Shown one piece after another: positions 10,501-38,155 of a stretch of 64,000 nucleotides of DNA (positions are counted from its first letter, which is position 1; the number at the start of each line of letters is the position of its first letter). The notes under the pieces are model-generated. The model had not been told where the DNA came from. It was given only the letters and a program-made list of their open reading frames with translations, and searched no databases. Made by a program: the position numbers and the translations under genes. Source of the stretch: an uncultured Pelagibacteraceae bacterium (lineage in GTDB: Bacteria > Pseudomonadota > Alphaproteobacteria > Pelagibacterales > Pelagibacteraceae); NCBI GenBank assembly GCA_902595635.1, contig CACJQT010000003.1:1-64000 (forward strand). Reading direction: 5' to 3'.

Positions 10501-11757
10501 ATGCAGAAATATTCAGTATTTAGTCTAATCAAAAATGCTTTTTCCAATCATCAAAATTGGGAAGTTGCTTGGAAAGATCCAACTCCAAAAAGTGAATATG
10601 ATGTAGTCATCATTGGAGGCGGAGGACACGGTCTTGCTACTGCATATTATTTAGCAAAAGAACATAACATTAGAAATGTAGCTATCATTGAGAAAGGCTG
10701 GATTGGTGGTGGAAATGTTGGTCGAAATACAACTATCATAAGATCAAATTTTATGTACGATGCTAATGCAAGATTCAATGAATTTGGAATGGATTTATGG
10801 AGAAACTTAAGTCAAGAACTGAACTTTAATGTGATGTTTTCTCCAAGGGGAATAATAAACTTAGCCCACTCAGATGCTCAAATGAACGCATATGCTCGTA
10901 GAGGAAATTCTATGAGATTAAATGGAATAGATGCAAAGTTATTGGATAGAGACGAAGTTAAAAAATTAATTCCAATGGCTGACTTTAGTGATGAAGTACG
11001 TTTCCCAATTTTTGGAGGATTAATGCAACCAAGCGCTGGTACCGCAAGACATGACGCTGTTGCTTGGGGTTATGCACGTCAAGCAGATGATATGGGAGTA
11101 GATATAATACAACATTGTGAGGTCACTGGTTTTGATGTTGTTAATGGAAAGATAAAAGGAATTAGAACTTCAAGAGGAGATATTAAAGCAAAAAAAGTTG
11201 GATTATGTGTTGCAGGTAGCACAAATATATTAGCTGAAAAATTAAATATGACACTACCAATAGAAACTCATGTACTGCAAGCTTGTGTTTCAGAACCTGT
11301 AAAACCATTATTAGACGGAGTAGTAACTTTTGGTGCAGGTCACTTTTATATAAGTCAATCAGATAAAGGTGAGATGGTAATGGGTGGTGATCTTGATGGA
11401 TATAATAGTTATGCTCAAAGAGGTAACTTGCCAACTATACAACATGTATTGACAGGTGGCTTAGCTTTGTTTCCATTTTTAAGTAGATTAAAAATGTTAA
11501 GGACATGGGGAGGTATCATGGATATGTCCATGGATGGTTCTCCAATAATTGATAAAACTCATATTGAAGGTTTATATTTAAACTGCGGATGGTGTTATGG
11601 AGGTTTTAAATCAACTCCTGTCTCAGGTTGGACATTTGCTCATACAATTGCACAAGATCAAGTTCATGAATTAAATTCAGAATTAAGATTAAATAGATTT
11701 TCTACAGGCCATCTTTTAGATGAAAAAGGTTTAGGAACTAAAACCTGGATTGGTTAA
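10501..11757 (+). CDS. soxB: Sarcosine oxidase subunit beta
   Basis: FAD-binding GGGGHG motif; soxBDAG gene order. Confidence 0.94.
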   Translation: MQKYSVFSLIKNAFSNHQNWEVAWKDPTPKSEYDVVIIGGGGHGLATAYYLAKEHNIRNVAIIEKGWIGGGNVGRNTTIIRSNFMYDANARFNEFGMDLWRNLSQELNFNVMFSPRGIINLAHSDAQMNAYARRGNSMRLNGIDAKLLDRDEVKKLIPMADFSDEVRFPIFGGLMQPSAGTARHDAVAWGYARQADDMGVDIIQHCEVTGFDVVNGKIKGIRTSRGDIKAKKVGLCVAGSTNILAEKLNMTLPIETHVLQACVSEPVKPLLDGVVTFGAGHFYISQSDKGEMVMGGDLDGYNSYAQRGNLPTIQHVLTGGLALFPFLSRLKMLRTWGGIMDMSMDGSPIIDKTHIEGLYLNCGWCYGGFKSTPVSGWTFAHTIAQDQVHELNSELRLNRFSTGHLLDEKGLGTKTWIG

Positions 11758-11759
11758 AA

Positions 11760-12029
11760 ATGTTATACATCAAATGTCCTTATTGCGGTTTAAGAGCACA
11801 AAAAGAATTTTCATATGGAGGTGATGCAACTGTAAAAAGACCTAATATAAATGAAGAAGTATCAAGTGAAGATTGGGATAATTTTGTTTATATGAGAAAA
11901 AGTCCAAGAGGGAAACATATAGAGTTATGGCAACATATAGCTGGATGTAGACAATGGATTAAGGTGCAAAGAGACACTGCTACACACGAAATTTTCCAAA
12001 CAGCAAAAGTCACAGAAGAAATAAGATGA
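11760..12029 (+). CDS. soxD: Sarcosine oxidase subunit delta
   Basis: Short protein with 'CPYCG' and 'HIAGCRQW', positioned between soxB and soxA. Confidence 0.94.
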   Translation: MLYIKCPYCGLRAQKEFSYGGDATVKRPNINEEVSSEDWDNFVYMRKSPRGKHIELWQHIAGCRQWIKVQRDTATHEIFQTAKVTEEIR

Positions 12030-15022
12030 GCCAACCATTTAGATTAAATAAAGAGGGATTAATTAATCGAAACAAAAAAATATCTTTTACTTTTAATGGT
12101 AAAAAATTATTTGGATATGAAGGTGATACAATTGCATCTGCTTTAATAGCAAATGGAATACACTTGGTCGGTAGAAGTTTTAAATATCATAGACCGAGAG
12201 GTTTTTTTGGTGCAGGAGTAGAGGAGCCAAACGCAAAACTACAAGTAGAATTCAATGGTCATTCAGAACCTAATGTTAATGCAACAGAAATGGAACTCGT
12301 TGAAGGTTTATCAGCTACTAGCCAGAATTGTTGGCCATCAGTTAATTTTGATATTGGTGCAATTAATAATTTTTTAAAAATGTTTTTCCCTGCAGGGTTT
12401 TATTACAAAACATTTATGTGGCCTAAAAGTTTCTGGTATAAAATTTACGAACCTTTCATAAGAAAAGCTGCAGGTTTAGGGGTTGCTTCAATAGAAAAAG
12501 ATAAAGAAAGATATGAACATAAATTTGAGTATTGTGATTTGTTAGTTACTGGATCTGGACCATCTGGATTAGCAAGCGCTTATGCTGCTGCAAAAAATGG
12601 AGCAAAAGTAATTTTAGCTGAAGATAAACCAAGATTTGGAGGAACACTTTTAACCGACGATGTAAGCATCGATAATTTATCAGGAAAAGATTGGGCAGAA
12701 AAAATAATTACTGAATTAAAATCTATGCCTAATGTAACTGTAAAAAATAGATCTCAAGTTTTTGGTTACTATGATCATAATATGCTGGTTATGTTTGAGA
12801 GAGTTAGTGATCATTTAGAGAAAAAATCAAAATTCACTCCAAGACAAAGACTTTGGTATATTAGAGCCAAAGAAACAATTTTATCAACGGGATCAATTGA
12901 AAGACCAATTGTATTTGGAAACAATGATACTCCTGGAATTTTTTTATCAGCAGCTGCAAAAGAATATATGAAAGTCTACGGAGTTTTAGTAGGAAAAAAA
13001 CCTTTAATATTTACAAATAACGATAGTGCATATGAAACAGCTTTAGAGTTTAAAAAAAATAATGTTGAACCAATTATATTAGATACAAGAGAAGAACATT
13101 CATCAGAATTAATCGATGAAGCTAAATCAAAAGGAATTGACATAAGATTTTCTCACGGTGTTATTGTTGCTAATGGATACAAAAAAGTTAAATCTGCAAA
13201 AATTGGTAAACTGAATAAAGATAAAAATTCTTTTGAGAAAATAGAAACGGTAGATTGTGATTGCATTTGCGTGTCTGGATTTTGGACACCATCTGTACAT
13301 TTAGCATCACAATCAGGAAATAAACTTAAGTATGAAGAAAAAATTGATGCATTTATTCCAGATAAGAAAAAACAACACGAGACCTCAGTTGGTGCAGCAA
13401 ATGGATCTTTTACTTTAGAAGAAAGTTTAAAAAATGGTTTTGAAAATGGTTCAAATCTTTCTGCTAAAATTACAGATACTAAAACAGAAATTGCAATTCC
13501 AAATGTAAATGAAAAAAAATATGGTGTTCATGATAAGTTTTGGTGCATGCCATTACCTAAAAATGAAAATCCAAAAAGATTTGTTGATTTTCAAAATGAT
13601 GTATCTGTTTCAGATATAGAAATTGCACTAAGAGAAGGTTACAGATCAATAGAGCATGTCAAAAGATATACAACTCTTGGAATGGCAACAGATCAAGGGC
13701 GTACAAGTAATTTAAATGGTCTTCAGTTGGTATCTAATATAGAAAATAAAATAGTTCCTGAAGTAGGACACACAACATTTAGACCACCTTTCACTCCAAT
13801 TACTATCGGGACAATAGTTGGTCGTGAAGTAGGTATGGAATATATGCCGACTAGAAAAACTCCAATGCATGAATGGCATGAGAAAAATAATGCTGTTTTT
13901 GTTGATGCAGGTGCTTGGAAGAGGCCTCGATATTACAAACAAGGTAATGAAACTTTATTTGAAGCTTCAAAGAGAGAGGCAAAAAATGTTAGAGAGAACG
14001 TCGGTATCTGCGATGTAACAACATTAGGAAAAATTGATATCAAAGGTCCAGACGCAGCAGAATTTTTAAATAGAGTTTATACTAATGCTTGGATGAAATT
14101 ACCTGTTGGAAAAGCAAGATATGGATTAATGCTTAGAGAAGATGGAATTGTCATGGACGATGGAACAACAACAAGAATTTCAGAAAATCATTATCATATG
14201 ACTACTACAACAGCACAAGCTGCGAATGTTTTATCTCACTTAGAATATTATCTTCAAATTGTTTGGCCTGAATTAAATGTAAACGTCGTTTCTACAACTG
14301 AGCAATGGGCAGGAGCCGCAATTGCAGGACCTAAATCAAGAGACATATTATCAAAATTATATCCAGACCTAGACGTATCAAATAATGCTTTGCCTTTTAT
14401 GGGCTATAAAGAAGCAGAATTTTTTGGTGTTCCGTCAAGAATTTTTAGAATTTCATTTTCTGGTGAGCTTGCATATGAGATTAATGTCAAATCAGATCAT
14501 GGCATGTTCATGTGGGAGAAAATGATGGAAGTAGGAAAAGAATTTGGAAATCAGCCTTACGGAACTGAAGCTTTATCAACATTAAGAATTGAAATGGGAC
14601 ACGTTGCAGGACCAGAATTAGATGGCCGAACAATCCCATCAGATGTTTCATTAAATGGATTAGTTTCAAAGAAAAAAGATTTTATTGGCAAAAATTCTTT
14701 AGGAAGAGAAGCATTTAATGTTGAGAGCAGACAAAAAATTGTTGGACTTATTCCAATTGATAGAAAGTCTAGTATTCCTGAAGGATCTCATATCGTCCAA
14801 GATCAGAATGCAAAATTACCAAACCCTAAACTTGGCCATGTTTCTTCTTCTTGTTGGAGTGTAGAAAATAATAATCCATTTTCACTAGCAATTATGAAAG
14901 ATGGAAAAAATATGATAGGTAAAAAGTTTTTTGCGGTATCACCATTAAAAAATAAATCAATTGAAGTAGAAGTTATTTCTTCTCATTATGTTGATCCTGA
15001 AGGAAAAAGAGTTAGATCATGA
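12026..15022 (+). CDS. soxA: Sarcosine oxidase subunit alpha
   Basis: 998 aa; N-terminal Fer2-like region, FAD domain 'GSGPSGLASA', C-terminal GcvT domain. Confidence 0.95.
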   Translation: MSQPFRLNKEGLINRNKKISFTFNGKKLFGYEGDTIASALIANGIHLVGRSFKYHRPRGFFGAGVEEPNAKLQVEFNGHSEPNVNATEMELVEGLSATSQNCWPSVNFDIGAINNFLKMFFPAGFYYKTFMWPKSFWYKIYEPFIRKAAGLGVASIEKDKERYEHKFEYCDLLVTGSGPSGLASAYAAAKNGAKVILAEDKPRFGGTLLTDDVSIDNLSGKDWAEKIITELKSMPNVTVKNRSQVFGYYDHNMLVMFERVSDHLEKKSKFTPRQRLWYIRAKETILSTGSIERPIVFGNNDTPGIFLSAAAKEYMKVYGVLVGKKPLIFTNNDSAYETALEFKKNNVEPIILDTREEHSSELIDEAKSKGIDIRFSHGVIVANGYKKVKSAKIGKLNKDKNSFEKIETVDCDCICVSGFWTPSVHLASQSGNKLKYEEKIDAFIPDKKKQHETSVGAANGSFTLEESLKNGFENGSNLSAKITDTKTEIAIPNVNEKKYGVHDKFWCMPLPKNENPKRFVDFQNDVSVSDIEIALREGYRSIEHVKRYTTLGMATDQGRTSNLNGLQLVSNIENKIVPEVGHTTFRPPFTPITIGTIVGREVGMEYMPTRKTPMHEWHEKNNAVFVDAGAWKRPRYYKQGNETLFEASKREAKNVRENVGICDVTTLGKIDIKGPDAAEFLNRVYTNAWMKLPVGKARYGLMLREDGIVMDDGTTTRISENHYHMTTTTAQAANVLSHLEYYLQIVWPELNVNVVSTTEQWAGAAIAGPKSRDILSKLYPDLDVSNNALPFMGYKEAEFFGVPSRIFRISFSGELAYEINVKSDHGMFMWEKMMEVGKEFGNQPYGTEALSTLRIEMGHVAGPELDGRTIPSDVSLNGLVSKKKDFIGKNSLGREAFNVESRQKIVGLIPIDRKSSIPEGSHIVQDQNAKLPNPKLGHVSSSCWSVENNNPFSLAIMKDGKNMIGKKFFAVSPLKNKSIEVEVISSHYVDPEGKRVRS

Positions 15023-24535: not shown

Positions 24536-25891
24536 TCACTTACTGACTACTTCTCTTGTATTTGCGTTGTAAGACTCTGTAAATGGAATATCAACTACAA
24601 CTGCATCAACTGGCTCCCCAGGTTTATCAGAATATTTTTCTGGTAGGTGGACTTTAAATTTCGATCCAACTTTACCTCTTGGAAAACCATTTGCATTCAG
24701 CGTGCCATCAAAAGGTACATATCCCATAGCAATATTTTTCCCTTTTTCTGGGTGATACCAAGGAGAAGTTACAAATCCTACAGGCTCACTGCCATTTTCT
24801 GAAATTAACCAAAAATCTGGAGCGTATTCTTCAATAGGTTTTCCTCCTAATTCAAGTCCAACTAATTGAAGCTTGTAAGGTTTATGACCTGCTTTTAAAT
24901 CAGCTTTCATTTTCTCGAGGGCTTTTTTACCAACATAATCACCTTTTTTGTTCCATTCACCTTTTCCAGATAAAGAAACTTGATATCCAAGATTACATTG
25001 AAAAGGATTATGCTCATGATCCATATCTTGTCCCCATGAAAGAATTCCAGCCTGAATTCTTCTATGGTGAGCAGGAGCAATCACCATTAAGTTATGTTTT
25101 TTACCTGCTTCAAGAACAGCATTCCACATATCTTCGGCATATAAAGTTGCTTCTCTTAAATATATTTCAAATCCAGACTCGCCTGAAAAACCTGTTTGAG
25201 AAATAATACAACTTCTTCCACCAACTTTTGCAGACGCCAAACCGTAAAAAGGCATGTTGTCTATGTCAACTTCACTTCCACAAAGATCTTTCATTAAAGC
25301 TTTTGCTTTAGGACCTTGAATTTGTACAGGACAAGCATCTATTTCATTAATTTGAACATTAAACCTTTCATCTGCATTTACTCCTTGCAGATATAATCCA
25401 ATATCACTATCTGATAAACTAAACCAAAATTCATCTTTAGATATTCTTAAAAGAATAGGATCATTTAATACTCCTCCGTATGCATTACACAGAATTACAT
25501 ATCTTCCTCTCATTGGAGAAATTTTTGTAGCATCTCTTGTAATTACATAATCAACAAATTTTTCTGCATCTGGTCCTTTAACTTGTATTTGTCTTTCAAC
25601 AGCAACATTCCACATTGTTACATGATTTTTAATTGCCTCGTACTCAACCATTGCACCACCATCTTCAGGTTTTACATAACCTCTTGGATGATAAATTCTG
25701 TTATAAACAGTTGCTCTCCAACATCCTGCTTTCATAGATAAATGCCAGTATGGAGATTTCCTTACTCTTGTTGATATTAGCATCTCAACTTTAGTAGGTC
25801 CGCTTTGTCTTAAATTGTATGGTACTTTTCTATCAGACTGATCTACTGATGTTGTATGTCTTAGTTTACTATAGTCAAATTCATTAGACAT
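24536..25891 (-). CDS. GcvT/DmdA-family tetrahydrofolate-dependent methyltransferase (demethylase-like)
   Basis: GcvT fold motifs 'WNVAVERQIQVKGPDAEKFVDYVITRD', 'GFSGESGFEIYL'; related to but not canonical DmdA. Confidence 0.83.
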   Translation of the reverse strand: MSNEFDYSKLRHTTSVDQSDRKVPYNLRQSGPTKVEMLISTRVRKSPYWHLSMKAGCWRATVYNRIYHPRGYVKPEDGGAMVEYEAIKNHVTMWNVAVERQIQVKGPDAEKFVDYVITRDATKISPMRGRYVILCNAYGGVLNDPILLRISKDEFWFSLSDSDIGLYLQGVNADERFNVQINEIDACPVQIQGPKAKALMKDLCGSEVDIDNMPFYGLASAKVGGRSCIISQTGFSGESGFEIYLREATLYAEDMWNAVLEAGKKHNLMVIAPAHHRRIQAGILSWGQDMDHEHNPFQCNLGYQVSLSGKGEWNKKGDYVGKKALEKMKADLKAGHKPYKLQLVGLELGGKPIEEYAPDFWLISENGSEPVGFVTSPWYHPEKGKNIAMGYVPFDGTLNANGFPRGKVGSKFKVHLPEKYSDKPGEPVDAVVVDIPFTESYNANTREVVSK

Positions 25892-26612
25892 AGTTATTCT
25901 CCTTCAACCACTTGTTAGTTTCCTTCAAGCCGCCGAATGTATAAATGTGGAAATAATCAGTATGCGATTTAACTTTCCCAATTAAATCATTAGGGTCTTT
26001 AGGTTTCAATAAATCTAACGCCTTACTAAAATTAGATTTAAGAAAGTTAATGGAATTTTTTGCCCCTACAATATTAGCAAATTTAATTAAGCTAGATATT
26101 TTCATTGGCCCAGTTATTCCAACATGAACTGGTATTGTTTGTTTTGAAATAAAATCTATAATAGGCTGAGTATCCATTAGCCACTGTGTAACTATATAAT
26201 CAGCATAAGGCTTTTTATCTATCATAGCTTTTTCTAAATCAGAGTCGGATATATCAGGACTCCCCTCGGGATGTCCAGCAATTCCAATCTTGATACCATC
26301 AAAAAACCCTGTCTCTAGCATTTGATATGAGCTATCAAATTTTCCGATCGGGTCACGACTTCCACCTATCACCAAGACCTGCTTAACACCCAAATCTTTA
26401 CATCTAGAAACATAATCTTTCAGCTGATTTTCGTCATTTATTGACCTTGCTGGGAAGTGAGGAACTGGATTAAATCCCTCTTTAACTAACTCTCCAGACT
26501 GTTGAGCGGTCTCTTTATAATCACCCCCAGGTAGCATTGTTACATAAACATCTTTTACCTTTGGCAAGGTGCTTAAATCAGTTTTAGGACCTATTTCTAA
26601 AGAAAAATTCAT
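25884..26612 (-). CDS. MetF-like methylenetetrahydrofolate reductase family protein
   Basis: 'FSLEIGPK', 'VPHFPARSI', 'GGSRDPIG', 'IGIAGHPEGSPD'; internal ATG at 26612 is the likely start. Confidence 0.82.
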   Translation of the reverse strand: MNFSLEIGPKTDLSTLPKVKDVYVTMLPGGDYKETAQQSGELVKEGFNPVPHFPARSINDENQLKDYVSRCKDLGVKQVLVIGGSRDPIGKFDSSYQMLETGFFDGIKIGIAGHPEGSPDISDSDLEKAMIDKKPYADYIVTQWLMDTQPIIDFISKQTIPVHVGITGPMKISSLIKFANIVGAKNSINFLKSNFSKALDLLKPKDPNDLIGKVKSHTDYFHIYTFGGLKETNKWLKENNYV

Positions 26613-26716: not shown

Positions 26717-27934
26717 ATGGAAAATAAATTATCTCAAATTACAGAATTATTCTCCAAAACAAGACAACAAACTCTATCCCTGTGCGAGAACTTAGAGGCT
26801 GAGGATATGGTAATACAGCCCAGCAAAAATGTTAGTCCTCTTAAGTGGCATCTTGGTCACACCACATGGTTCTTCGAAAAATTCATCTTGTCAGAATTGG
26901 ATGAAAGTTACAAACCTTTTAACAAAGATTATAACTACATATTTAATTCGTATTATAATTCTGTAGGTGAGTACAATCCTCGAAATAAGAGAGGTTCACT
27001 AAATAGACCCATCTTAAAAGATGTTGTAAAATATAGACATTATGTAACTGAAAATATTATTGATTTTTTAAAAAGGACAAAAAATAACAGGACATCATTT
27101 TTAGTTGAACTAGGTTCAAATCACGAACAACAGCATCAAGAATTAATGTTAATGGATATTAAAAATATTTTTTACAACAATCCATTGATGCCGACTTATA
27201 ATTCTAACGATGATAAACCAACCGCTAAAGAAGAAAATGAATTGACATTAAAAACTAGTAAAAAATTTAAATATGGAAACAACGAGGATATTTTTTGTTA
27301 CGATAACGAATTACCAGTATCAGAAACACAATTAGATCCTTTTAAAATTTATTCATTTATTACTAATGGAGAATGGAAAGAATTTATTAATGATGGAGGA
27401 TATAAAAATCATGAGTATTGGTTATCTGATGGATGGGATTTTGTAAATAATAACAAATTAGAAAAACCAATGTATTGGATAGATAATAATAATTATTTTA
27501 CATTAAACGGTGTAAAAAAAATTGATAATGAAAAGCCAGTTTCTCATATAAGTTTCTATGAAGCGGATGCTTTTGCAAGATACAAAAACAAAAGATTACC
27601 AACTGAATTTGAACTAGAGTATTTTTTAAAACAATCTGAAAAAAAAGGTAATTTTTTAGAGAATAAAATTTTTCATGAAGTAGAAGAAAAAGCAGACGAT
27701 GTTTATGGAAATTTATGGGCTTGGACCTGTAGTAATTACACACCTTACAAAAAATACAAACCATATGAAGGAAATCTAGGAGAATATAATAATAAGTTCA
27801 TGTGTAATCAGTTTGTCCTAAAAGGTGGCTCACATTCTACATCTATTAATCATGTCAGAGCATCTTATAGAAATTTCTTTTACCCAAGTGATACTTGGCA
27901 GTTTTGTGGTGTCAGACTAGCTGATGACATCTAG
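26717..27934 (+). CDS. egtB: Ergothioneine biosynthesis protein EgtB (sulfoxide synthase)
   Basis: DinB-like 'WHLGHTTWFFE', 'NHEQQHQELMLMD' iron ligands, C-terminal FGE-sulfatase domain 'VRASYRNFFYPSDTWQFCGVRLA'. Confidence 0.9.
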   Translation: MENKLSQITELFSKTRQQTLSLCENLEAEDMVIQPSKNVSPLKWHLGHTTWFFEKFILSELDESYKPFNKDYNYIFNSYYNSVGEYNPRNKRGSLNRPILKDVVKYRHYVTENIIDFLKRTKNNRTSFLVELGSNHEQQHQELMLMDIKNIFYNNPLMPTYNSNDDKPTAKEENELTLKTSKKFKYGNNEDIFCYDNELPVSETQLDPFKIYSFITNGEWKEFINDGGYKNHEYWLSDGWDFVNNNKLEKPMYWIDNNNYFTLNGVKKIDNEKPVSHISFYEADAFARYKNKRLPTEFELEYFLKQSEKKGNFLENKIFHEVEEKADDVYGNLWAWTCSNYTPYKKYKPYEGNLGEYNNKFMCNQFVLKGGSHSTSINHVRASYRNFFYPSDTWQFCGVRLADDI

Positions 27935-28896
27935 TGACTAATTTAAAATTAATAAACATAAACAATCAAATTCAAGATGATAAAAAATTAATCTTACAAG
28001 GATTATTAAATAAAAAACAAAAATATTTACTACCTAAATATTTTTATGATGAAAAAGGTTCGAGGTTATTTAATAAAATTACAAACCTCAAAGAATATTA
28101 CCCAACAAATAAAGAGTTAGGAATACTAGGTAACTTACAAAAAGAAATAAGAAAGAAATTACCAATTAATTCAACAATTGTAGAATTTGGTAGTGGCTCA
28201 AATAAAAAAATTAATAAATTTATAAAATCATTAAGTGAGCCCAAAGAATACATTCCTATAGATATTAGCAAGGAATATTTGTTTGAAAATGCATCAATAA
28301 TTGCAAAAAAATTCTCAGATTTAAAAGTAACTGCAATATGTGCAGACTTTAGTCAGACAAATAAATTAAATAAAATTTTAAAAAATAAAAAAAAAATTGT
28401 CAGTTTTTTTCCAGGATCGACCATAGGAAATTATTTACCTAAAAATGCAACAAAAATACTTAAAAATTTTTCAAAAATTATAGGCAAAAATTCTTATTTA
28501 GTAATTGGGGTAGATTTAATCAAAAATAAGAAGACTCTTGAAAATGCTTACAATGATAAATTGGGAGTTACAGCTAAATTTAATAAAAATATATTAAATG
28601 TAGTAAACAAAATTTGTAATTCTAATTTTCAAACTAAGAATTTTGATCATAAAGCATTCTACAATTTAAAAAAAAATAGAATTGAAATGCATCTTATTTC
28701 AAAAAAAAATTTCACGTTAAAAATTAATAAAAAGAATATAAAATTTAATAAAAACGAAACTATTCATACTGAAAATTCTCACAAATATTCAAAAAATAAC
28801 TTTGTTAAATTAGTTAACAAATCAGGCTTTAAAGTTTTAAAACATTTTACAGATAAAAGAAATTATTTTGGAGTTTTTTTATTAAAAGTGAAGTAA
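27934..28896 (+). CDS. egtD: L-histidine N-alpha-methyltransferase EgtD (GTG start)
   Basis: 'PKYFYDEKGSRLFNKIT...EYYPTNKE', 'VEFGSGSNKK', 'FFPGSTIGNY'; adjacent egtB. Confidence 0.92.
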   Translation: MTNLKLININNQIQDDKKLILQGLLNKKQKYLLPKYFYDEKGSRLFNKITNLKEYYPTNKELGILGNLQKEIRKKLPINSTIVEFGSGSNKKINKFIKSLSEPKEYIPIDISKEYLFENASIIAKKFSDLKVTAICADFSQTNKLNKILKNKKKIVSFFPGSTIGNYLPKNATKILKNFSKIIGKNSYLVIGVDLIKNKKTLENAYNDKLGVTAKFNKNILNVVNKICNSNFQTKNFDHKAFYNLKKNRIEMHLISKKNFTLKINKKNIKFNKNETIHTENSHKYSKNNFVKLVNKSGFKVLKHFTDKRNYFGVFLLKVK

Positions 28897-28904
28897 GTTT
28901 TATT

Positions 28905-29534
28905 ATGGCTCAAAAAGACGTAGGTAACAAAATTCCCATCTATAAGCTAAAAGAAACTGATGAAGTAATGAAATATTATGATGAGTGGGGAGATGGTAAT
29001 AAATATGATAAGGATATGGTCGATTGGAACTACACAGGACCAAAAGAAACAACAAAAGTATTTTCAGAATTCCAAAAAAACAAAGATGCAAAAATTTATG
29101 ATGCTGGTTGTGGAACTGGATTGGTGGGTATTGAATTAAAAAAATATGGTTTTAAAAATTTTCATGGGGCAGATCTTTCAAAAAAGTTATTAGAATTAGT
29201 ACCAAATGATCTTTATGAAAAGCTTGAACAAGTAGACTTGAATAAACCCATTAATAAAAAAGATGACGTATATGACTCTGTTATGTGTGTTGGTACATTT
29301 ACTTTTGGACATGTAAAGCCACCAGCTTTGGAGGAATTTATCAGGATTACAAAGAACGATGGATTTATCTGTTTTACTATTAATGAGGGAATACATGAAG
29401 AATATGGTTTTGATAAAAAAATTGAACAACTTAAAGAGCAAAATAAGTGGAAAGAAATAAAATTTTTTAAATCAGATTACATTGCAAGCAAAGACGTAAA
29501 TGCTTGGTTAGGGTTATATCAAGTGATAAAATAA
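28905..29534 (+). CDS. Class I SAM-dependent methyltransferase
   Basis: 'IYDAGCGTGLVGIEL' motif I. Confidence 0.85.
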   Translation: MAQKDVGNKIPIYKLKETDEVMKYYDEWGDGNKYDKDMVDWNYTGPKETTKVFSEFQKNKDAKIYDAGCGTGLVGIELKKYGFKNFHGADLSKKLLELVPNDLYEKLEQVDLNKPINKKDDVYDSVMCVGTFTFGHVKPPALEEFIRITKNDGFICFTINEGIHEEYGFDKKIEQLKEQNKWKEIKFFKSDYIASKDVNAWLGLYQVIK

Positions 29535-29537
29535 ACC

Positions 29538-30713
29538 ATGTCAGAAATTTACAATATTATAGATAAACAAAAGTTAGATATTGTATCTAAACCAATTAGT
29601 GAAGCTCATGGTTTACCAAATGAATGTTACATCAGTAAAGAATATACTTTAATTGAAAGAAAAAAATTATTTGAAGATAAGTGGATTGTAATTGGAGTTG
29701 GAAGTTCTATTCCAGATGAAGGTGATGTGAAACCAATTGATTTACTTGGAATACCCTTACTTATTGTTAGAACAAAAAATAAAGAAATAAAAGTTTTTCA
29801 CAATATTTGTAGTCATAGAGGAGTAAAATTAGTTAAAGAAGCTGGCAAAATTAGAAATGTTATGAGGTGCTCATATCATTCATGGTCTTATGACTTAGAA
29901 GGAAAGTTAATTGCTACACCTCATATAGGAGGCATGAATATTCATCAAACACCTGAATTTGATAAATCAAAAAGTAATTTAAAAGAGATAAGATCATATA
30001 TTTGGTTGGATCTGATTATGATTAATATTAACAACAATGAAATTTCATTTGAGGATTACATTAGTCCTTTAAGTAAAAGATGGGAAAAATTTTGGCCATT
30101 GAAAGATAGAGAATTAATTCATCATGCAAATGATTATGGTTATTTTAAATTAGATGCAAAATGTAATTGGAAATTTGCAATTGAAAATTATTGTGAGAGC
30201 TATCATTTGCCTTGGGTTCATCCAGGATTAAATTCTTATTCAAAATTAGAAGATCATTATCATATACAAGGTCTTCCAAATCGTTTCGCTGGACAAGGAA
30301 CAGTAGTTTACAATCCAAGGTTCGAAGGAAATGAAAAGTTCCCATGCTTTCCTAATTGGCCGAAAGATAAAGAAAATATAGCTGAGTACGTAGCACTATT
30401 TCCAAATGTAATGTTAGGAGTTCACAAAGATCATTATTATGCTTATTGGTTAGAGCCAATCAATCATAAGTTTACTATAGAACATATGGAAATTTATTAT
30501 GTAGGTGATGAAGCGGCAAATTCAACAAAATATAAATCTCTAAGACAAAAAAATCACAAACAATGGGAAGATATTCAAAAAGAAGATGTAGATATAATTC
30601 AAAGTATGCAAATAGGTAGAAACTCTCCAGCTTATAATGGTGGTAATTTTTCTCCGAAGATGGACAATCCAACACATCATTTTCATAAGTGGGTTGCTGG
30701 TAATTTAATTTAA
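29538..30713 (+). CDS. Rieske non-heme iron oxygenase alpha subunit (GbcA/choline monooxygenase-like)
   Basis: Rieske 'CSHRG...CSYHSW', mononuclear Fe 'ENYCESYHLPWVH'. Confidence 0.9.
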   Translation: MSEIYNIIDKQKLDIVSKPISEAHGLPNECYISKEYTLIERKKLFEDKWIVIGVGSSIPDEGDVKPIDLLGIPLLIVRTKNKEIKVFHNICSHRGVKLVKEAGKIRNVMRCSYHSWSYDLEGKLIATPHIGGMNIHQTPEFDKSKSNLKEIRSYIWLDLIMININNNEISFEDYISPLSKRWEKFWPLKDRELIHHANDYGYFKLDAKCNWKFAIENYCESYHLPWVHPGLNSYSKLEDHYHIQGLPNRFAGQGTVVYNPRFEGNEKFPCFPNWPKDKENIAEYVALFPNVMLGVHKDHYYAYWLEPINHKFTIEHMEIYYVGDEAANSTKYKSLRQKNHKQWEDIQKEDVDIIQSMQIGRNSPAYNGGNFSPKMDNPTHHFHKWVAGNLI

Positions 30714-32344: not shown

Positions 32345-33697
32345 ATGGATGGATGTTGTGGTCCTGGATATGCTAGTCCTGCAGAAGCAATAAAAGCACC
32401 AAAAGAAAAGCTTTTATATACTATAGCTATTTACACAGGGACAGGAATACAAAAACCAGATTACTTAGCAACAGTCGATGTTGATCCTCAAAGTCCTACT
32501 TATTCTAAAGTAATTCATAGACTTGAAATGCCAGGTATTGGTGATGAATTGCATCATATGGGATGGAATGCATGTTCTTCTTGTCATGGCGACTCAAAAA
32601 TGAGCAGAAAATATTTATTAGTTCCAGGTGTTAGATCAAATAATATTTATGTTGTTGATACTGCATCCGATCCTAGAGCTCCAAAAATACATAAAGTAGT
32701 AGATGGATCTGAAATAAAGAAAAAAACTAATTTATCAGGACCACACACAGTTCATTGCTTAGGTTCTGAAATTATCATTTCTTTTCTTGGAGACGCTCGA
32801 GGAGAAGCACCAGGAGGATATTTACATTTAAATAAAGATTTTGAAATTGTAGGTAGGTGGGAAAATTCAATGGGAGACATACCTTTTAGTTATGACTTCT
32901 GGTACCAGCCAAGACATAATGTAATGGTTAGTTCTGAGTGGGCTGCCCCAAATACTTTCATGCCTGGATTTGATTTAGAGGAAGTTGGTCATTTGAAATA
33001 TGGTAGACGACTTCATGTTTGGGATTTTAAAAAAAAAGAGCCAGTTCAAACAATGTATTTAGGTGAAGACGGTTTAATACCTTTAGAAGTAAAATTTATG
33101 CATAATCCTGACAGTAGTCATGGATTTTGTGGTGCAGCGCTAAGTGCAAATGTAATTCATTTTTGGAAATCAAAAGAGGGAAAATGGGAATGGGAAAAAA
33201 TAATTGATGTTGAAAATGAACCACATCCTGATTGGCCAATCCCTGTACCTGGAGTTATGTCAGCGATATTAGTTTCAATGAATGATAAATATCTCTATAT
33301 AAATAATTGGCTTCATGGAGATATGAGGCAATACGATATTTCAGATCCGCACAAACCTAAATTAACTGGTCAAGTTTGGATGGGTGGATTGTTAGGAAAG
33401 GCTCCAGAAGTAAATGGTGTTAAAATTGCTGGTGGACCTCAAATGTATCAATTATCTTTAGATGGCAAAAGGATGTATGTAACAACATCATTATTTTCTA
33501 CTTGGGATAATCAATTTTATCCTGAAATTAGAAAACAAGGTGGAGCAATGATTATGATTGATTGTGATGTTGAAAATGGAGGAATGAAAATTAATAAAGA
33601 TTTTATTGTTGATTTTGGTAAAGAACCAAATGGACCTAGTAGGTGCCATGAAAGTAGATATCCAGGTGGAGATTGCACAAGCGACATCTGGCTATGA
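32345..33697 (+). CDS. SBP56-family protein / methanethiol oxidase
   Basis: 'CGPGYASPAEA', 'PDYLATVDVDPQSPTYSKVIHRL', 'DELHHMGWNACSSCHGD' closely resemble SELENBP1/MtoX. Confidence 0.9.
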   Translation: MDGCCGPGYASPAEAIKAPKEKLLYTIAIYTGTGIQKPDYLATVDVDPQSPTYSKVIHRLEMPGIGDELHHMGWNACSSCHGDSKMSRKYLLVPGVRSNNIYVVDTASDPRAPKIHKVVDGSEIKKKTNLSGPHTVHCLGSEIIISFLGDARGEAPGGYLHLNKDFEIVGRWENSMGDIPFSYDFWYQPRHNVMVSSEWAAPNTFMPGFDLEEVGHLKYGRRLHVWDFKKKEPVQTMYLGEDGLIPLEVKFMHNPDSSHGFCGAALSANVIHFWKSKEGKWEWEKIIDVENEPHPDWPIPVPGVMSAILVSMNDKYLYINNWLHGDMRQYDISDPHKPKLTGQVWMGGLLGKAPEVNGVKIAGGPQMYQLSLDGKRMYVTTSLFSTWDNQFYPEIRKQGGAMIMIDCDVENGGMKINKDFIVDFGKEPNGPSRCHESRYPGGDCTSDIWL

Positions 33698-35722: not shown

Positions 35723-38155
35723 ATGAAATCCAAAGCAAAAGTAGTTGTAGTTGGTGGTGGAGTAGTAGGGGTAAGTGCTCTTTATCATTTAGCAAAAAAA
35801 GGTTGGTCAGATGTAGTTTTAATTGAAAGAAAAGAACTAACATCAGGCTCAACTTGGCATGCGGCTGGCTTATTACCATTATTTAATATGAGTTATTCTG
35901 TGGGACAACTCCATAAGTATGCTGTTAATTTATATAAAACTTTAGAAGAAGAGACAGGTAAGAACGTAGGTTTCAGTGTTGTATCAAATATTAGATTAGC
36001 AAGCACTAAAGATAGAATGGATGAATATTTTCAATACGCTGGTGTTGCTCAAACAATTGGTGTTGATGTAAAATTTTTAACTCCAGATCAAGTTAAAGAA
36101 ATCTGGCCATTATGTAATACATCAGATTTAGTTGGTGCAATACAACATCCTGAAGATGGATATATTCAACCAGCTGATTTAACTCAAGCACTTGCAACAG
36201 GTGCAAGAAATAGAGGAGCAGAAATATATAGAAATACAAATGTTGTTGGAATGAAACAAACCAAAGATGGTTGGGTTGTAGAAACAGATAAAGGATCAAT
36301 AGAATGTGAACATATTATTTCTTGTTCAGGAAATTTTGCAAGACAAACTGGAAAGATGGTTGGTTTAGATATTCCAGTCATTCCAGTTGAACATCAATAC
36401 ATTGTTACTGAACCTCATCCAGAAATTCAAAAAAGAAAAAAAGATGGATTACCAGAGATGGGAGTTTTAAGAGATAGTGATAGTAGATGGTATATGAGAG
36501 AAGAAGCAGGTGGATTAATTTTAGGACCATATGAAGATGGTGCACCAGCTTGTTATGTAGATGGACCATCAAAAGATTCTGAATATGAATTATTTCAGGA
36601 AGATTTGGATAGATTAGCACCTCATATTGAAGGTGCAATACATAGAGTCCCTGCGTTTGGAGAAGTGGGAGTTAAGAAAGTTTATAATGGAGCAATTTGT
36701 TACACTCCAGATGGTAACCCAATTGTTGGTCCTGCTTGGGGATTGAAAAATTTTTGGATAAATGAAGGTCATAGTTTTGGTATCACTGCAGCAGGTGGAG
36801 CAGGATGGCAACTTGCTGAATGGATCGTAGATGGTGAACCAACAATTGATATGCTTGGTGTTGAACCAAGAAGGTATGGAGATTATTGCTCTAAGTCATA
36901 TTTAAAAGCTAAAAATGAAGAAGCTTACAGTCACGTTTTCATAACTCACTTTCCTGATGAAGAAAGACCAGCAGCAAGACCATTAAGAACAGCGCCATGT
37001 TATGACAGAATGAAAAATTTAGGAGCAGTATTTGGTCAAAAATTTGGATGGGAAAGACCTAATTTTTTTGCAACCGATGGAATGGAGCAAAAAGACGATT
37101 GGTCATTTAGAAGATCTAAATGGTTCAATGCAATGGAAAAAGAATGCAAAAACGTAAAAGAAAACGTTGGTCTTTTAGATATGACTGCATTTGCAAAATG
37201 TAGAATTAAAGGACCTGGTGCGGAGGAATTTTTAGATAATTTAGTTGCAAACAAATTACCAAAAAAAGTTGGAAGAATTAATTTATGTCACGCTTTAAAT
37301 ACTAAAGGTGGAGTTCATTCTGAATTTACTATTATGAGAGAATCACATGATAGCTTTTATTTAGTATCAGCAGGAGCTTTCCAAAGATTAGATCATGATT
37401 GGATTTTAAAATGGATGCCTTCAGATGGTTCAGTGCAGTTTGAAAATTTAACTAATAGTAATGGAGTTTTGGTTGTTTCAGGTCCAAAAGCAAGAGAATT
37501 AATGCAAAGAGTTTCAAAAGATGATTTTTCAAATGAAAACTTTAAATGGCTAAGTGCAAAAATGGTTGATGTAGGGTACGCACCAGTAAATGCTATGAGA
37601 GTTAATTTTGTTGGTGAATTAGGATGGGAACTTCATCATCCAATTGAATATCAAAATCACATTTTTGATAAACTTATGGAAGCAGGGCAAGATCTTGAAT
37701 TAAAGCCATATGGTATTAGAGCAATGAATAGTTTGAGAGTAGAAAAATCGTATAAATTGGTTGGAACAGAACTATCAATAGAATACTCACCTTATGAAAG
37801 TGGTCTTGATAGATTTATTCATCCTAATAAAGGAAGTTTTATTGGACTTGAAGCATTGAATAAGTGGAGAGAAAAAGGTTTTGATAATAAGCTTGTTACT
37901 TTAGAGGTTCATAATCCAAAAGATGCAGATGTATTAGGCAACAACCCAATTTATGAAAATGGAAGTGTTATAGGAAGAGCTACAGGAGGAGATTTTGGTT
38001 TTAGAATTGGAAAATCATTAGCATTAGGAATGGTTAAACCAGAATTAGCAAATGTTGGACAAAAACTTAAAATTGAAATATTAGGTGAGAAATATGATGC
38101 TACAATTTTAGATGAAAGTCCTTACGATCCAGAAAACAATTTATTAAGAGCTTAA
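35723..38155 (+). CDS. FAD-dependent dimethylglycine/sarcosine dehydrogenase-family protein with GcvT domain
   Basis: '[20 protein letters not shown]', '[12 protein letters not shown]', C-terminal GcvT region; etfBA follows. Confidence 0.88.

Follow-up and report, generated by a model that had tools for sequence, protein, structure and literature searches.

Two overlapping genes of the SAR11 bacterioplankton probably encode a cobalamin-independent, tetrahydrofolate (THF)-dependent glycine betaine (GB) demethylase, here termed DmdL, and an oxidative homologue of methylene-THF reductase (MetF). The pair was identified in a 64,000-nucleotide stretch of an uncultured Pelagibacteraceae genome (hereafter the window). 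In the proposed pathway, DmdL would bind GB in a DmdA-like cavity and transfer one of its N-methyl groups to N5 of THF, yielding dimethylglycine (DMG) and 5-methyl-THF. MetF, translated together with DmdL, would oxidise 5-methyl-THF to 5,10-methylene-THF, from which FolD and formate-THF ligase would carry the C1 unit on to formate and ATP, and DMG would pass to dimethylglycine dehydrogenase (DMGDH) and then sarcosine oxidase, ending as glycine. We infer from the evidence below that GB is the donor, that transfer to THF is direct, and that this is the chemistry of DmdL. What is new is the substrate assignment, since the pair and its probable role in C1 metabolism were already published in 2011 (PMC3160333). 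Our search covered the open-licence PMC literature, in which no paper described a GB demethylase of DmdL's family that depends on THF; the novelty is therefore provisional.

The DmdL-MetF pair and its genomic neighbourhoods

Inspection of the sequence confirmed the positions given in the initial annotation: DmdL occupies 24536..25891 on the minus strand (451 aa, ATG start) and MetF occupies 25884..26612 on the same strand (242 aa), with the MetF stop and the DmdL start overlapping by 8 nt (25884..25891, minus strand). The overlap points to translational coupling, and a GGAG-like ribosome site lies inside the 3' end of MetF, directly 5' of the DmdL ATG. The MetF ATG is at 26612, and an alternative TTG start would give a protein of 259 aa. 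The counterparts of DmdL and MetF in Ca. P. ubique HTCC1062 are SAR11_1265 and SAR11_1264, respectively, whose mRNA levels in stationary phase are jointly reduced by a factor of approximately 5 to 10 (PMC5069961), an expression pattern that fits co-regulation. Rfam models returned no riboswitch match upstream of metF, either in the window or in a second SAR11 locus (L208). Conservation of the pairing, on which the initial reading of the genes as a functional unit depended, was evident: MetF lies immediately 5' of DmdL in 28/28 relatives' loci examined, and half of the dereplicated DmdL loci, 19 of 38 across several phyla, include MetF; the pairing is not due to chance. The genome that contains the window (1.12 Mb, 45 contigs) encodes seven GcvT-fold proteins besides DmdL, and the MetF of the pair was the only MetF match found in this SAR11 MAG. 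Gene content and the published SAR11_1264/1265 pair are the grounds on which we assign the genome to SAR11.

DmdL orthologues, mostly 62-88% identical, were identified in Alpha- and Gammaproteobacteria, Actinobacteria, Gemmatimonadota, Nitrospinae and Latescibacterota. Of 385 genomes sampled evenly from the window's class, 20 gave matches at E <= 1e-70: a DmdL-group member in 19 (with at least 65% identity in 18 and 53% in the other) and only a 40% relative in the last. A scan of GTDB contigs that used a non-SAR11 alignment yielded 80 named loci with 70-81% identity to the query, spread over all the taxa just listed and from genera including Halomonas, Litchfieldella and Marinobacter (Gammaproteobacteria) and Arthrobacter, Brevibacterium and Nocardioides (Actinobacteria). 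Such conservation across phyla suggests one fixed substrate. Two very long DmdL reading frames (861 and 956 aa), from genomes of high GC content, were considered as fusions and rejected, their upstream parts resembling out-of-frame translation of GC-rich DNA.

DmdL loci are coupled to DMG and sarcosine catabolism and to GB uptake or regulation. Across 101 loci, we found genes for DMG dehydrogenase/oxidase in 69, MetF in 61, SoxA in 37, formate-THF ligase in 23, a GbdR-type regulator in 17 and a BCCT transporter in 7; dereplication at 85% left 38 loci, with corresponding counts of 20, 19, 9, 8, 5 and 2. At least one associated gene was present in 28 of these 38 loci and none in 10, partly owing to contig ends, and for the window the counts err on the low side, since its DMGDH, 10 kb away, is only partly covered by the stretch counted. 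SoxBDAG genes occur in DmdL loci alongside DMG genes, runs of DmdL, MetF and formate-THF ligase were identified in Marinobacter, Halomonas and others, and Arthrobacter loci also include FolD, PurU and GlyA-like genes. PDB matches identified the flavoprotein neighbours as DMG enzymes, with 1209 bits to the A. globiformis DMG oxidase for the Arthrobacter protein, 730 bits for the HIMB59-like one and a weaker match of 369 bits for that of Marinobacter. The Marinobacter regulator beside DmdL exceeds the GbdR equivalog cut-off (501 vs 480); GbdR, annotated as a regulator of choline metabolism, responds to GB and DMG. The BCCT transporter adjoins DmdL in Gemmatimonadota.

Genes for the proposed later steps are also present in the window. 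DMGDH (35723..38155, plus strand; 810 aa, with FAD and GcvT domains) matches mammalian DMGDH (PDB 4p9s) over its full length at 1e-193 and lies approximately 10 kb from DmdL, to which it is adjacent in other taxa. SoxB (10501..11757, plus strand; sarcosine oxidase beta subunit family, TIGR01373, 666 bits, cut-off 529) and SoxA (12026..15022, plus strand; alpha subunit family, TIGR01372, 1316 bits, cut-off 1164) were assigned from their model scores. In two other SAR11 genomes (G500, locus L208; G004, locus L206), genes for an OpuAC-type binding protein and a ProW/ChoW-like permease, metF and dmdL are co-oriented with short gaps, so that some SAR11 genomes apparently have them in one operon; this run is adjoined by BHMT and a DMGDH-like gene in divergent orientation. 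Where BHMT and DmdL share a contig, they are at most 6 kb apart in 24 of 27 pairs.

Further genes were found near DmdL. Divergent from metF in the window are EgtB and EgtD (26717-28896), both above NCBIfam cut-offs; a link to ergothioneine synthesis was rejected because relatives carry BHMT, Rieske or transporter genes in their place. Window positions 28905-30713 encode a small SAM methyltransferase and a GbcA-like Rieske oxygenase (119 bits, cut-off 670), homologues of which adjoin BHMT and the DMGDH-like gene in BHMT-bearing SAR11 (L208, L206), so that the substrate of the window protein, too, may be a betaine. Also in the window is an SBP56-family, methanethiol-oxidase-like protein (32345-33697; MtoX 160 bits vs a cut-off of 650). 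A 369-aa protein beside BHMT and DMGDH-like genes in SAR11 (L206:952-2061), with a weak arginine-deiminase-fold match, appears to resemble glycine amidinotransferase. Gemmatimonadota loci include a gamma-butyrobetaine-dioxygenase/TmpA-like protein near DmdL (L150:12333-13553, 231 bits, below cut-offs; also L145, L147 and L154), part of these loci also possessing a BCCT transporter or DMGDH. Finally, a gene of approximately 280 aa (cluster 25; L099, L117, L119, L132, L066) recurs within a few genes of DmdL, and adjacent to it in several loci; the two members scanned gave no Pfam match.

Phyletic co-occurrence and the methyl donor

We surveyed 118 SAR11-family genomes, all at least 90% complete except the window's own, and identified DmdL in 88, BHMT in 35 and a DMGDH orthologue (80% identity or more) in 92. 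DmdL and DMGDH were found together in 87 genomes, DmdL alone in 1, DMGDH alone in 5 and neither in 25 (Fisher 1e-19, a value that ignores phylogeny), such that DMGDH occurs in 87/88 DmdL-positive vs 5/30 DmdL-negative genomes. DmdL and BHMT show no association (p 0.10, with phylogeny likewise ignored), and DmdL occurs without BHMT in 58 of the 118 genomes, two of them complete and single-contig. Since DMGDH is linked to DmdL in the main genus, gaps in MAGs or assemblies can remove both; outside that genus, where the two genes mostly sit on separate contigs, the six genomes with DmdL are precisely the six with DMGDH, and the seven with BHMT form another set. Only an MmuM-like homocysteine methyltransferase was found in the complete SAR11 genomes G247 and G337, and a true BHMT in G012.

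Known GB demethylases were also sought in 24 DmdL carriers. The MtgB family was present in one (G341) and absent from 23, and GbcA scored over its cut-off in four, with Halomonas and Litchfieldella among them; Rieske proteins of Arthrobacter sp. C2 and Brevibacterium, at approximately 410 bits, are under the GbcA cut-off and so were left uncounted. Six carriers (Rhodospira trueperi, Tamilnaduibacter salinus, Arthrobacter sp. H14, A. castelli, G115 and G160) yielded neither a protein of BHMT length nor MtgB nor a GbcA above its cut-off, and their S-methyltransferase matches were absent or MetH-sized only. The presence of GbcA (Halomonas, Litchfieldella) or MtgB (G341) in some carriers, and of DMGDH in five DmdL-negative SAR11 MAGs, are counterpoints to GB as the substrate. 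HTCC1062 oxidises GB methyl groups (PMC3160333); as this strain also has BHMT, the observation is non-discriminating.

From these data the donor can be narrowed to GB or a very close analogue. There is a small but real chance that it is another trimethylammonium compound feeding into the DMG/sarcosine machinery, such as beta-alanine betaine, carnitine or choline: the DmdL neighbourhood indicates N-methyl catabolism generally, BCCT, OpuAC and DMGDH-like proteins could serve analogues, and the TauD protein of the Gemmatimonadota loci is gamma-butyrobetaine-dioxygenase-like. Favouring GB over these compounds, the enzyme found again and again beside DmdL in different phyla is a genuine DMG dehydrogenase/oxidase, which acts on what GB demethylation yields, and the regulator beside DmdL is GbdR, with its annotation in choline metabolism. 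The donor for SAR11_1265 was earlier speculated to be methylmercaptopropionate (MMPA), in a second demethylation of DMSP, on the strength of kinship to DmdA and the MetF neighbour (Sun et al. 2011, PMC3160333). We consider this very improbable, and the distribution and neighbours of DmdL led us to disfavour it: orthologues sit beside DMG and sarcosine genes in Arthrobacter, Nocardioides and Gemmatimonadota, MMPA is routed to methanethiol in Ca. P. ubique (PMC5069961), and a neutral thioether would be a poor methyl donor.

Family membership and direction of the reaction

Pfam identified GCV_T (4.8e-41) and GCV_T_C (9e-7) domains in DmdL, in agreement with the GcvT-family signatures first noticed in the translation, and maximum-likelihood phylogeny placed it in the DmdA superclade, as a member of neither DmdA, GcvT nor LigM. 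DmdL proteins of several phyla form one clade (support 100/100; 97/95 when a 50-53% relative is included) apart from DmdA, GcvT and LigM; DmdL and DmdA both fall inside the DmdA superclade (100/99). Some branches are long, and only well supported splits were relied on. DmdL also scored under the cut-offs of the gcvT models (138.9 vs 235.85; 159.3 vs 300). The protein had initially been described as uncharacterised and distinct from canonical DmdA. The distinction holds, and DmdL falls within neither the characterised DmdA nor the characterised GcvT clade; the pair itself had been noted in 2011 as SAR11_1264/1265, with MMPA guessed as the donor. The DmdA superclade also has uncharacterised groups approximately 40% identical to DmdL (L057-L061), several of them in one genome (G056).

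The closest solved relative of DmdL is DmdA (3tfh, 2.7e-44), which was also the best match of its AlphaFold2 model, at a TM score of 0.90 normalised to target length, followed by GcvT. The model has a mean pLDDT of 80 and leaves residues 1-41 and 441-451 unresolved. The kinship to DmdA in sequence and fold could indicate a second DMSP demethylase, which we nevertheless regard as a slim prospect. DmdL scored 237.1 bits against the NCBIfam DmdA model PRK12486, under its equivalog cut-off of 410, and this score and the tree exclude DmdA membership; two other proteins of the same genome already exceed that cut-off. Moreover, the position of DmdA W197 is F in DmdL and DmdA S-K-Q is S-G-E across 100 aligned sequences. 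The two DmdA-scoring proteins (L002:1471-2634 and L003:1249-2358) are 49% identical to one another, and the 387-aa protein of this pair may represent a second DmdA clade or a mis-scored relative.

In line with a place in the DmdA superclade, N143-D144-P145 and the folate-site residues E242 and Y244 are kept in 100/100 aligned DmdL sequences. Aromatic residues W49, W58, Y67, W286 and W378 are invariant and specific to the DmdL clade, and, judged from the alignment, could cage a quaternary ammonium group. The extended N-terminus remarked on in the initial annotation is a conserved feature, with residues 16-33 nearly invariant among 100 homologues and missing from DmdA.

Pfam matched MetF to MTHFR only weakly (1.5e-5). 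Its nearest solved structure is 7xg9 (3.2e-32), which we take to be the S6MTHFR of SYK-6, canonical MTHFRs matching at approximately 0.01 (best 0.009), and we assign it to the S6MTHFR type. S6MTHFR of SYK-6 is reported to oxidise 5-methyl-THF and is paired with LigM (PMC12585457). MetE, MetH and MtgBCDE are absent from SAR11, for which no user of 5-methyl-THF has been published (PMC12478193), and Sun et al. placed SAR11_1264 in a THF-linked oxidation pathway (PMC3160333). Given the affinity to S6MTHFR and these published absences, we infer that MetF would run in the oxidative direction in this organism. Methyl transfer to form 5-methyl-THF followed by oxidation by MetF, as originally suggested from the coupling of the two genes, is well supported by the S6MTHFR-type MetF, by formate-THF ligase in operons of other phyla and by the published lack of MetE and MetH in SAR11.

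The GcvT fold and the flavoproteins nearby could alternatively mean that DmdL forms 5,10-methylene-THF as GcvT does, from a flavoprotein-made imine or formaldehyde, with MetF acting reductively. This appears hardly likely: DmdL has the N-D-P motif of DmdA where GcvT has D-D, DMGDH and SoxA each carry a GcvT domain of their own, and the product of a reductive MetF would have no published user in SAR11 (PMC12478193). An O-demethylase for methoxylated aromatics like LigM/DesA, prompted by the S6MTHFR-like MetF and the LigM-S6MTHFR pairing in SYK-6, is exceedingly improbable and was rejected on HMM score (LigM 35 bits, cut-off 580; a second LigM/DesA score of 42, cut-off 800), tree (a separate, distant long branch) and fold (TM 0.58), and no aromatic-ring catabolism genes were found among annotated neighbours. 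Nor was the LigM-like C-terminal region of the initial annotation borne out, the LigM match being weak (1e-6) and covering residues ~75-272 only.

Known systems and implications for SAR11

DmdL shares with DmdA of P. ubique (3tfh) the GcvT fold, the N-D-P motif, equivalents of folate-site E204/Y206 and, in our proposal, THF as methyl acceptor. It differs in its 27% identity, separate clade, ~40-residue N-terminal extension and residues at DMSP-site positions, and its genes sit with DMG catabolism and MetF. The LigM-S6MTHFR system of Sphingobium SYK-6 follows the same logic of a THF demethylase with an oxidative MTHFR homologue, to which the window MetF is 34% identical, whereas LigM belongs to a distant GcvT-family branch and acts on aromatic methyl ethers. 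The net reaction proposed here would be that of MtgBCD/MetF2 of Ruegeria pomeroyi (Mausz 2025), in which the GB methyl group is passed to THF and oxidised through MetF; that system uses three proteins and cobalamin, and DmdL would need neither. BHMT and the GbcAB Rieske monooxygenase likewise convert GB to DMG, as proposed for DmdL, but BHMT has homocysteine as acceptor, an unrelated fold and a patchy distribution in SAR11 (35/118 vs 88/118 for DmdL), and GbcAB is an oxygenase that releases formaldehyde.

Known methyl donors in the wider family are a sulfonium for DmdA and aryl ethers for LigM. We know of no precedent in the DmdA/GcvT family for attack by N5 of THF on a quaternary ammonium, and demethylation of such a compound by THF would, to our knowledge, be a chemical first. 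The 2011 guess of MMPA for SAR11_1265 is replaced by a directly testable substrate, GB.

GB is among the most abundant osmolytes of the ocean, and SAR11 its most abundant heterotroph. The first step of GB use in SAR11 is currently ascribed to BHMT, found in less than half as many of the surveyed genomes as DmdL. It is likely that a further aerobic route of GB demethylation exists, in which one enzyme of the DmdA/GcvT family, requiring neither cobalamin nor oxygen, passes the methyl group directly to THF, and that this route belongs to the core of most SAR11 and occurs in several phyla; the view that SAR11 depends on BHMT alone would then be overturned. If so, GB catabolism would be uncoupled from methionine synthesis, vitamin B12 and oxygen, and metagenomic surveys of GB turnover would gain DmdL as a new marker gene.
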